Below, piece after piece: positions 12,976 through 32,158 of a stretch of DNA of 64,000 nt; within the stretch, counting starts at the first letter, position 1, and every line of letters begins with the position of its first letter. Source of the DNA: Haloarcula salina (GTDB lineage Archaea; Halobacteriota; Halobacteria; Halobacteriales; Haloarculaceae); NCBI RefSeq assembly GCF_010119195.1, contig NZ_WRXL01000003.1, positions 124,001-188,000 on the forward strand. Direction: 5' to 3'. A program made the translations under genes and the position numbers. The notes beneath the pieces are model-generated. The model worked only from the letters and a program-made list of their open reading frames with translations. It did no database searches and was not told the origin of the DNA.

Positions 12976-14028
12976 ATGAAGTACGATACGCTCGGGAACT
13001 CCGGCGTCGAGGTCTCGGAAGTCGGCTTCGGCGCGTGGGTCGTCGGCACCGACTGGTGGGGCGACCGCACCCGCGAGGACGCGGTCGAGATGGTCCAGCA
13101 CGCCCTCGACGAGGACGTGACCTTCTTCGACACCGGGGACGTGTACGGCCACGGCGACAGCGAGGAGATCATCGGCGAGGCGCTCGCCGAGCACCGCGAC
13201 GAGGTGACGGTCTCGACGAAGATCGGCTACGACTTCTACAACAACCCCCAGGCCGGCCACGGCGAACTCCCGAAGAAGATCACGCCCGAGTGGATCCACA
13301 CCGCGCTCGACCGCTCGCTCGACCGCCTCGGCATGGACCACGTCGAGCTGCTGATGCTCCACAACGCGAACGTCGACGAGGTCGACGAGGACGTGCTGGA
13401 GGCCCTCGACGAACTCCGCGAGGAGGGCAAGGTCGAGGCCATCGGCTGGGCGCTGGGCCCCTCCATCGGCTGGCTCGCCGAGGGCGACGCCGCGGTCGCC
13501 GAGGAGTTCGACGCGCTCCAGACCGTGTTCAATCTCTTCGAGCAGACCCCCGGCCAGCACTTCGTCGACACCATCCGCGATCGGAGCGCCGACACGTCGG
13601 TCATCGCCCGCGTCCCCCACTCCTCGGGCCTGCTGAACGAGCAGGTCACCCCGGACACCGAACTCGGCGAGGGCGACCACCGCGCCCACCGGCCGACCGA
13701 GTGGTACGAGACGGGCTGGGAGAAGGTGGAGTCGATTCGATTCTTAGAACGAGACGGCGCGCGGACGATGGGCCAGGCCGCCATTCAGTGGCTCCTCGCC
13801 CACGACGAAGTCGCGTCGGTCACGCCGACGTTCCGGACGACCGCCGACATCGACGAGTGGGCCGGCGCGCCCGACACCCCGCCGCTCAGCGACGAGGAGT
13901 ACGAGCGCGTGCAGGACCTGTACGCCGACAACTTCGGCGTCGACCGCGACGACGGGATGGACGCCCTTCGCTCGTCGGTCGGCGGCGCGGACCTCGAAGA
14001 CACCGGCATGAAGTCCGCCGGCGACTGA
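12976..14028 (+). CDS. Aldo/keto reductase (AKR family, long type)
   Basis: 350 residues starting MKYDTLGNSGVEVSEVGFG. Tetrad D52, Y57, K82 and H129 (FFDTGDVYGHG; STKIGYD; MLHN). It is similar to YajO/general stress AKRs that use NADP(H) on aldehydes. The gene starts 25 bp after the CPBP gene and has its own TATA-like GATAAGTTT centred at about 12950. It is not especially close to the AKR at 4206; the two belong to different AKR subgroups. Confidence 0.92.
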   Translation: MKYDTLGNSGVEVSEVGFGAWVVGTDWWGDRTREDAVEMVQHALDEDVTFFDTGDVYGHGDSEEIIGEALAEHRDEVTVSTKIGYDFYNNPQAGHGELPKKITPEWIHTALDRSLDRLGMDHVELLMLHNANVDEVDEDVLEALDELREEGKVEAIGWALGPSIGWLAEGDAAVAEEFDALQTVFNLFEQTPGQHFVDTIRDRSADTSVIARVPHSSGLLNEQVTPDTELGEGDHRAHRPTEWYETGWEKVESIRFLERDGARTMGQAAIQWLLAHDEVASVTPTFRTTADIDEWAGAPDTPPLSDEEYERVQDLYADNFGVDRDDGMDALRSSVGGADLEDTGMKSAGD

Positions 14029-14470
14029 ACGGCCCTCAGCGGCGACCGCTCACGTCGCCAGCGTATTCTCGACGCCGTCGTGACACTCACCCCACCGTTC
14101 CAGTTGACACGCTATAGTGGCCATTGAAAGTCAATGCACACCCGATCGCACGACGGCAGTGCGATCGGTGTGTAAATCGTTTCAATTGTTACTATAGCCC
14201 TCGACGACGCGGCCTATCGAACTCCGATCCCTCGATTGTTCACCGCCACCCCTCCCTTTCGACAGGAGATCGACCGCTGTCGGGCGATTCGTCGTACGAC
14301 AGTTCACTTTCACTCCGCCCCGTCAGACACTCGCAAGACGCCAGACGGCGGCGGGTTCGAGGTGAAACGAAGGGGTTCGGGTCTCGGGAGCAGTTCGCAT
14401 GACCTGGCCGCGGAGCACGGACACACCGGCGTCGACCGGCCGACCCGGACGCGTCCGCGCCGCCGTGGCG
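14029..14470. other. 442-bp intergenic region holding a palindromic mobile-like element
   Basis: Between convergent genes. It contains the 86-bp inverted-repeat element (14112-14197) and a CAGTTCACTTTCACTC motif (14300-14315) whose complement recurs before radA. The rest shows no coding pattern that I trust. Confidence 0.6.
14112..14197. repeat. 86-bp terminal-inverted-repeat element with internal hairpin (MITE-like)
   Basis: The outer repeats are CTATAGTGGCCATTGAAA (14112-14129) and TTTCAATTGTTACTATAG (14180-14197), complementary at 15 of 18 positions. Inside, CACACCCGATCGCAC (14137-14151) pairs with GTGCGATCGGTGTG (14159-14172) across a 7-nt loop with one bulged C. The composition is far more AT-rich at the ends than the local sequence. 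The shape fits a non-autonomous mobile element or a structured RNA/DNA element. No obvious target-site duplication is seen, and no second copy was found in this window. Confidence 0.7.
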
Positions 14471-15523
14471 TCAGTCGTAGACGGTCACGCCGGAGACGAC
14501 GAACATCGCGCCGCCGTCGGGGCCGTCGGTCACGTCGATCTCCCATCCGTGGGCGGTGGCGATCTCGCGAACGATGAGCAGCCCCAGTCCGGAGCCGCCG
14601 CTGTCGGTCGTGAAGCCGGCTTCGAAGACCTGCTCGCGCTGGTCCGCCGGGATTCCGGGCCCGTCGTCGGCGACGCTGAACCCGTCGTCGCCCACCTCGA
14701 CGGTCAGCGTGACGGCCGTCTCGGTATCGCCGTCCGCGCCGTCGGGCGTGCCGTGCTCGATGCTGTTGCGAAAGAGGTTCTCGAAGAGCTGCAACAGGAG
14801 CGTCCTGTCCGCCGCGATCGACGCGTCCGTCGGCGCGTGGAGTTCGCCGCCGTCGGTCCGCACGTGCGACCAGGCCTCCCGAGCGGCGTCGCCCAGATCG
14901 AGCCGTTCGACCGCCACTACGTCGGTCTCGCGAGCGATGAGCAACGCGTCGTCGATGATGTCGTTCATGCGTTCGAGCGACCGTTCGACCGCGCCGACGT
15001 GTCCGTCGTCGTCGCTCGCGAGCATCTCGTTGCGCGCCAGCGCCACCGACAGCGGGTTGCGCAGATCGTGGCTGAGGATACCGGTGACCAGTTCCAGCAG
15101 GTCGTTGCGCTCCGAGACCGCCTGTTCGGCCAGGAACCGGTCGGTGATGTCGGCGTGGACGACGAGCACCAGCGGGTCGCCGTCGAACTCGAACTCCCTG
15201 ACCCGCATCGTGAACCAGCGCTCTTCCTCGGGAGCGTGACAGGGGTACTCGAGGGAGAACGTCGACTGCTCGCCCTCGATCACGGCCTCGATCCCGTCGG
15301 CGGCCCGGGTCCCGAGTTCGTCGTCGCCGGTCCGACAGACCGTGAGATAGTTCTCGCCGACCATGTCGGAGCCGATCTGTGCGCCGTTCTCGATGCCGAA
15401 CGTCTCCCACGCGCGGTTCGTCGCCTGGATGACGCCGTCGGTGTCGATGACTGCGATCTGGTCGGGGTGTTCGTCGAAAACCGCCTCGGCGAGGCGCGTT
15501 CGATCCGGGAGATCGTCAGTCAC
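14471..15523 (-). CDS. PAS-domain sensor histidine kinase
   Basis: 350 residues with no membrane segment. A PAS domain (about 15-130, DQIAVIDTDGVIQATNRAWE and the C-terminal DITDRF) is followed by the dimerisation H-box with H152 in LSHDLRNPLSVA. The HATPase domain carries the N-box NLFRNSIEHG and the G-box DDGPGIP, ending with GLGLLIVREIATAHGW. It is a soluble haloarchaeal two-component kinase; no response regulator is adjacent, so it may feed a shared regulator. Confidence 0.93.
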   Translation of the reverse strand: MTDDLPDRTRLAEAVFDEHPDQIAVIDTDGVIQATNRAWETFGIENGAQIGSDMVGENYLTVCRTGDDELGTRAADGIEAVIEGEQSTFSLEYPCHAPEEERWFTMRVREFEFDGDPLVLVVHADITDRFLAEQAVSERNDLLELVTGILSHDLRNPLSVALARNEMLASDDDGHVGAVERSLERMNDIIDDALLIARETDVVAVERLDLGDAAREAWSHVRTDGGELHAPTDASIAADRTLLLQLFENLFRNSIEHGTPDGADGDTETAVTLTVEVGDDGFSVADDGPGIPADQREQVFEAGFTTDSGGSGLGLLIVREIATAHGWEIDVTDGPDGGAMFVVSGVTVYD

Positions 15524-31430: not shown

Positions 31431-32158
31431 GCGACGACGGCCCGCATCCCGAATACGGCGAGACGTGGGTGTACGAGAGCATCGTCGGCGCGCTCCCCGG
31501 CATCCAGGTACCCACGTGGGCGGCGATGGCGATACAGCTCCTCGTCTTCGAGGTGGCCATCGTCGGCCTGTCGTGGTACTACGGCGTCTGGAGCGCCGCC
31601 GTCGCCGGGACGGCCGTCGTGCTCGTCGCGACCATCGGGAGCGCGGAGATGCTTCGCATCAGCACGCTCGTCCGCCGCATCGACGTGCCAGAGACCTACC
31701 GGGCGCTGCTGTTCTCCTCGAACGTCGAGGTCGTCCTGTCCGTCCTCGCGTACATCGCGCTGTTGACGCACCTGTTCGTCTTCGACCCCCGGGTGAGCAC
31801 CACACCGCTGTTCGAGCGCCTGTTCGGTCCCGAGCCGCCGGTGCTGGTGGTGTACCTGACGCTGCTCATCCTCTGGGACGTGAGCTACCGCATCGGCACG
31901 GGCTGGTGGGCCAGCGTCACGGGCCTGTGGCGGTCGGCGCGCTACCGGTTCGATCCCGAGACGGCGCGCGTGTTCGTCCGCGCCGACCTCGAGACCTGGG
32001 GCTTCGGCGTCCTCCAGCTCGTTCTCCTCCCGTTCGTACTGGACCAGCCGGTCCTGCTCGCGGCGCTGGTCGGTCACGTCGTGGCCGTGACAGTCGTGAC
32101 GGCCGTCTCTGTGACGCTGTTACGAGTCCGGTCGAGAACGGCCGCTAGTCCGAGTTGA
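31427..32158 (+). CDS. Multi-pass membrane protein, translationally coupled to the atypical SDR
   Basis: 243 residues with about five transmembrane helices (for example AMAIQLLVFEVAIVGLSWYY and EVVLSVLAYIALLTHLFVF). The N-terminus is polar (DDGPHPEYGETWVYESIVG). ATGA overlap with the upstream gene implies coupling. I do not recognise a named family; no transport or enzyme motif is visible. Its 3' end overlaps the convergent DUF5786 gene by 14 bp. Confidence 0.75.
   Translation: MSDDGPHPEYGETWVYESIVGALPGIQVPTWAAMAIQLLVFEVAIVGLSWYYGVWSAAVAGTAVVLVATIGSAEMLRISTLVRRIDVPETYRALLFSSNVEVVLSVLAYIALLTHLFVFDPRVSTTPLFERLFGPEPPVLVVYLTLLILWDVSYRIGTGWWASVTGLWRSARYRFDPETARVFVRADLETWGFGVLQLVLLPFVLDQPVLLAALVGHVVAVTVVTAVSVTLLRVRSRTAASPS

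Follow-up and report, generated by a model that had tools for sequence, protein, structure and literature searches.

The 86-bp palindrome at positions 14112-14197 of the analysed stretch of DNA, i.e., 64,000 nucleotides from Haloarcula salina that will be referred to as the window, is very probably a MITE moved in trans by a transposase of the IS630/Tc1-mariner type, the likeliest candidate being an ISNma7/ISNpe3-like enzyme or a close relative of it. It has the traits that are typical of MITEs: it is short and non-coding, it has terminal inverted repeats related to the ends of transposons, and it is dispersed in many copies, for which empty sites are found in related genomes. It would therefore represent an ordinary kind of mobile element, namely an IS630-type haloarchaeal MITE, and the family itself seems undescribed: no description was found in the open-access literature, to which the search was confined.

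The movement would involve a transposase supplied in trans that recognises the two ends of the element, each of roughly 26 bp, excises it, and reinserts it in a CTAG sequence, at its TA, which becomes duplicated, so that the product reads C-TA-[80 bp]-TA-G. The haloarchaeal ISNma7/ISNpe3-like IS630 group, or an undetected close relative, would most likely be the source of this enzyme. Both the cut-and-paste mode and the particular transposase involved are inferred from sequence comparisons. A preliminary description of the locus had offered two readings, a MITE mobilised by a transposase encoded elsewhere and a conserved intergenic structure, and the copies, the empty sites and the insertion-sequence-like ends described below support the first of them.

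Architecture of the Element

The near-perfect palindrome is flanked by an aldo/keto reductase gene (12976-14028, + strand) and a histidine kinase gene (14471-15523, - strand), at distances of 83 and 273 bases from the respective gene ends. As single-stranded DNA, it folds at -25 kcal/mol vs a mean of -11.55 for its shuffled versions (z = -5.95), and none of 200 shuffles folds as well. The sequence and the coordinates first given for it hold, as does the count of 15 of 18 Watson-Crick positions paired in the outer arms; the inner hairpin that these arms were said to enclose is also present, with a stem slightly longer than originally drawn, where 14135-14151 pairs with 14159-14174 and one base is bulged. 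The arm pattern has two matches in the 64-kb window, with 0.04 expected, and both are the ends of the element. Its parts are as follows, the assignments of the target bases anticipating the comparison with empty alleles.

14112, unstranded: probable C of the former CTAG target (empty alleles of relatives are CTAG; the base outside TA is mostly C)
14113..14114, unstranded: probable left TA of the target-site duplication (filled and empty alleles compared at other copies of the family)
14115..14194, unstranded: mobile element proper, 80 bp, TAGT...ACTA (net gain of 82 bp at empty sites)
14195..14196, unstranded: probable right TA of the target-site duplication (filled and empty alleles compared)
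14197, unstranded: probable G of the former CTAG target (empty alleles and flanking-base counts)
14112..14129, + strand: left terminal inverted repeat, GCC-type arm (consensus 22/28 against the right end of the ISNma7 group)
14180..14197, - strand: right terminal inverted repeat, AAC-type arm (15/18 paired with the left arm)
14135..14151, + strand: inner hairpin stem, 5' side, TGCACACCCGATCGCAC (folding, and pairing in aligned copies)
14152..14158, + strand: hairpin loop GACGGCA (inverted in 3/71 aligned copies)
14159..14174, + strand: inner hairpin stem, 3' side, GTGCGATCGGTGTGTA (folding, and pairing in aligned copies)

The element proper (14115-14194) is non-coding; its 80 bp contain no transposase gene and are too short for one. 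Rfam covariance models gave no match, neither locally nor across the whole window. Elsewhere in the window, 31899-31991 holds a tRNA-Pro (CGG) of 93 bases, a length that suggests an intron.

Abundance and Distribution of the Copies

The genome of the organism (3.79 Mb in 14 contigs) contains about 27 distinct places homologous to the element, many of them more than 90% identical, which rules out a chance palindrome. Matches occur in 30 of 60 relatives, with copy numbers going from none to dozens per genome, and in 52 named haloarchaeal plasmids (from Haloarcula, Natrinema, Natronorubrum, Halomicrobium, Natrialba, and others), so that the occurrence of similar sequences in haloarchaea, as suggested in the preliminary description, proved correct. 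The distribution is patchy within Haloarcula, and homologues are present in many other haloarchaeal genera as well. Intact copies are nearly constant in length, at 85-86 bp including CTA/TAG, and two pHH400-type plasmids, i.e., of the Har. hispanica type, have all nine copies in common, so that comparing them revealed no direct instance of movement. Phage records contained no match to the element, and eight pattern matches in viral contigs were set aside as chance, all of them being single ends with no partner. One locus (L302:1435-1600) has a tandem pair of copies arranged around one CTATAG, 166 bp in all, which is 2 bp shorter than predicted for two TA-flanked insertions.

Of the 25 copies scored in the own genome, a simple gene-finding heuristic places none inside a gene, and the orientation of the neighbouring genes is mixed, with four uncertain cases. 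This placement bears on the SMRs of Haloquadratum walsbyi (HqIRS40-43/55, PMC3119063), to which the element is alike in size (80-110 bp), non-coding nature, prominent terminal inverted repeats, and high copy number. It is very unlikely to be one of them, that is, a repeat unrelated to transposons, lacking a target duplication and mobilised in an enigmatic manner: by description (PMC3119063), SMRs have neither target duplication nor transposon-like ends and target mainly other mobile elements, whereas copies of the present element lie between genes, its ends resemble those of a transposon group, and the TA at its target is consistent with a duplication.

Empty Sites and Target

To read the target, the joined flanks of ten copies from a Har. 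hispanica-like genome (G011), one contig of which has copies at the coordinates known from pHH400 of Haloarcula hispanica, were searched against the genus and the matching loci were aligned. Every comparison opposed a filled allele of 86 bp to an empty allele of about 4 bp. Four independent sites have precisely CTAG there (L132 in G027; L135 in G004 and G008; L136 in G004 and G031; L141 in G005), and the remaining cases have CTGA, CTAA, CTGG, CCAG or TAAG, which mutation or relaxed targeting would explain. In addition, C is the base next to the TA on its outer side in 155 of 176 element ends. Because the empty alleles have 4 bp and are CTAG at four independent sites, the data are most simply read as an insertion at the TA of CTAG in which the TA was duplicated, which leaves an element of 80 bp (14115-14194); on this alignment-based reading, the TA would be duplicated target sequence and not belong to the element. 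CTAG itself is rare in the 64-kb window, with 23 occurrences vs 181 expected from base composition.

A TA duplication inside CTAG, as presumed here, is known from the literature as the signature of IS630/Tc1-mariner transposition, to which the 4-bp empty sites, CTAG at four of them, and the TA at both ends correspond. Insertion into TA with TA duplication has been reported for the IS630 family and likewise for ISY100, a Tc1-mariner element (PMC2170065), and a preference of IS630 for the TA in CTAG is on record as well (PMC2170065, with the title by Tenzen and Ohtsubo cited therein); these elements differ from ours in being autonomous and bacterial (PMC2170065). A further parallel is MITEPsy1 of Pseudomonas syringae (PMC3189936), a MITE of about 100 nt with 18-nt inverted repeats and a CTAG or YTAA target, which differs in its 4-bp duplication, its ends derived from ISPsy2 (family listed as IS5?), and its bacterial host. 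Being short, palindromic, intergenic and multicopy, the element also recalls REP/REPIN or PATE-type elements, moved by the single-strand transposase (TnpA/RAYT) of IS200/IS605. An assignment to these is extremely improbable, as PATEs, marked by near-terminal palindromes, have neither terminal inverted repeats nor duplications (PMC3119063), whereas the present element has true terminal inverted repeats, IS630-like ends, and TA at each end of the insertion into CTAG; the empty sites disfavour this assignment too.

At the window's own locus, the end of the reductase gene and a block downstream are conserved throughout the genus. An element end is missing from all 19 relatives fetched there, the best partial match having at least 5 mismatches, and the copy is thus absent at this locus in those relatives. 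The divergence of the intergenic sequence is too high for the exact target to be read, and the same holds for the flanks of another own-genome copy (L011), whose orthologues are empty. A conserved intergenic structure, in the sense of orthology, accordingly found no support. A single copy with neither relatives nor empty sites had been named as the case against mobility, and what emerged is about 27 copies together with precise empty alleles at other members of the family.

Candidate Source of the Transposase

A DDE_3 search identified a group of 1059-bp IS630 elements with ends of the form C-TA-TAGTA...TTAGAA, whose transposase (PF13358 and HTH_33) is encoded in two frames, and whose copies in named plasmids are annotated as IS630-like ISNma7 or ISNpe3; the sample was enlarged by 80 more loci from named genomes. 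As in the element, the flanking base is mostly C (138 of 164 ends). Comparing the element's arms with insertion-sequence ends, as the preliminary description had proposed, revealed a resemblance to this group: in ungapped comparisons of consensus ends, the GCC arm and the ISNma7-group right end agree at 22/28 positions, with a shuffle P < 5e-5. Beyond column 7 the agreement is 15/21, and the AAC arm matches the left end of the group at 19/28. Shuffled letters hardly ever score as high, although the P values are rough because such shuffles ignore how the ends were chosen, and other haloarchaeal IS630 groups match the element end at 2-13 of 22 positions. Since the ends match those of this group and the CTAG flanks are the same, the MITE is most likely moved by an ISNma7-type transposase or one closely related to it. 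The two share the C-TA-TAGTA edge and the CTAG-type target, and they differ in length, in the two-frame transposase gene of the autonomous group, in their interiors, which are unrelated, and in the TTAGAA of the group vs the TTGAAA of the element.

This last difference makes it conceivable, if rather doubtful, that the mobiliser is a different transposase, from an element with TTGAAA in its own ends, and that the ISNma7 group is a mere cousin of similar ends; such a reading overlaps with the one preferred here, which is not tied to one particular IS630 transposase. TTGAAA is present in every hairpin subfamily found by pattern and absent from all of the roughly 82 ISNma7-group copies whose ends are clear. 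Some MITE-rich genomes have no ISNma7-type genes, and three copy-rich ones (G029, G041, G057) gave no match to a DDE_3 transposase. Against this, two pattern scans of 392 haloarchaeal genomes, with patterns that miss some continuations, found no autonomous element with TTGAAA ends, the matches to long TTGAAA-ended elements being short hairpin elements or unpaired ends, and the homology with the ISNma7-group ends reaches well past the first 7 bases. The failure to find an exact partner in these scans weighs on the preferred reading as well. Some candidates were rejected on inspection. Candidates of 1.2 kb bounded by such ends, from G011 among others, proved in each case to be two separate MITE copies, and an end at L303 (1502 onward) beside a transposase-like ORF, IS5-like by eye, probably reflects a nested insertion and not a partner.

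It also counts against an ISNma7-like source that all the own genome contains of this kind is a single decayed IS630 copy, ISNma7-like (contig C11, about 253200-254250; L197, L322), in which the HTH part is open and the DDE part is broken by stops.

Hairpin Pairing and Subfamilies

An alignment of 71 copies shows the drawn stems paired in 95% of the cells, and shifting the stem partners in the alignment abolishes the pairing. Stem pairs changed on both sides number 10 vs 4.2 in shuffles, with none of 500 shuffles as high, in counts that are inflated by kinship among the copies; they support, rather than prove, that the pairing is maintained by double compensatory changes. The pairing itself thus does appear maintained across the copies. 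The loop is opposite in orientation relative to the arms in three copies (L017, L134, L294), which suggests that the inner palindrome can flip.

The maintained stems, together with the lack of copies inside genes, would also suit a structured RNA, a terminator or a regulatory hairpin conserved at fixed loci for a host function. We consider this highly improbable in view of the widely varying copy number, the orthologous loci without the element, the precise empty sites, the lack of an Rfam match, and the mixed orientation of the genes around the copies; the element may have a host role in addition to mobility.

In related subfamilies, the ends and the CACAC/GTGTG step are retained around central hairpins that are unrelated. 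This variety, together with the compensatory stem changes, is more than an ordinary MITE would show. The subfamilies comprise a second 86-bp type, 110-114 bp types, and a 124-bp type, and such alternative hairpins were found in G133, G297, G345, and G067/G306 (L292, L313, L339, L343, L299).

Implications

An apparently undescribed and widespread family of archaeal MITEs now has CTAG/TA as its defined target and a likely group of transposases, and annotators have a simple explanation for the recurrent intergenic palindromes of Haloarcula, Natrinema, Natrialba, and their relatives. In haloarchaea, CTAG shows strong depletion and is a methylation target of a conserved orphan methyltransferase, to which the literature assigns no known function (PMC6471742, PMC6606915). 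By inserting into CTAG sites and destroying them, the present family touches on that question. A broader and speculative proposal, which we regard as unlikely, is that Halobacteria harbour an order-wide set of modular hairpin transposable elements, with constant transposase-binding ends and a replaceable hairpin that has to stay paired, their spread being confined to the rare CTAG sites, which in haloarchaea carry m4C methylation. If so, the hairpin would be under selection for transposition or for a host role, and the methylation or avoidance of CTAG may relate to IS630-type elements.
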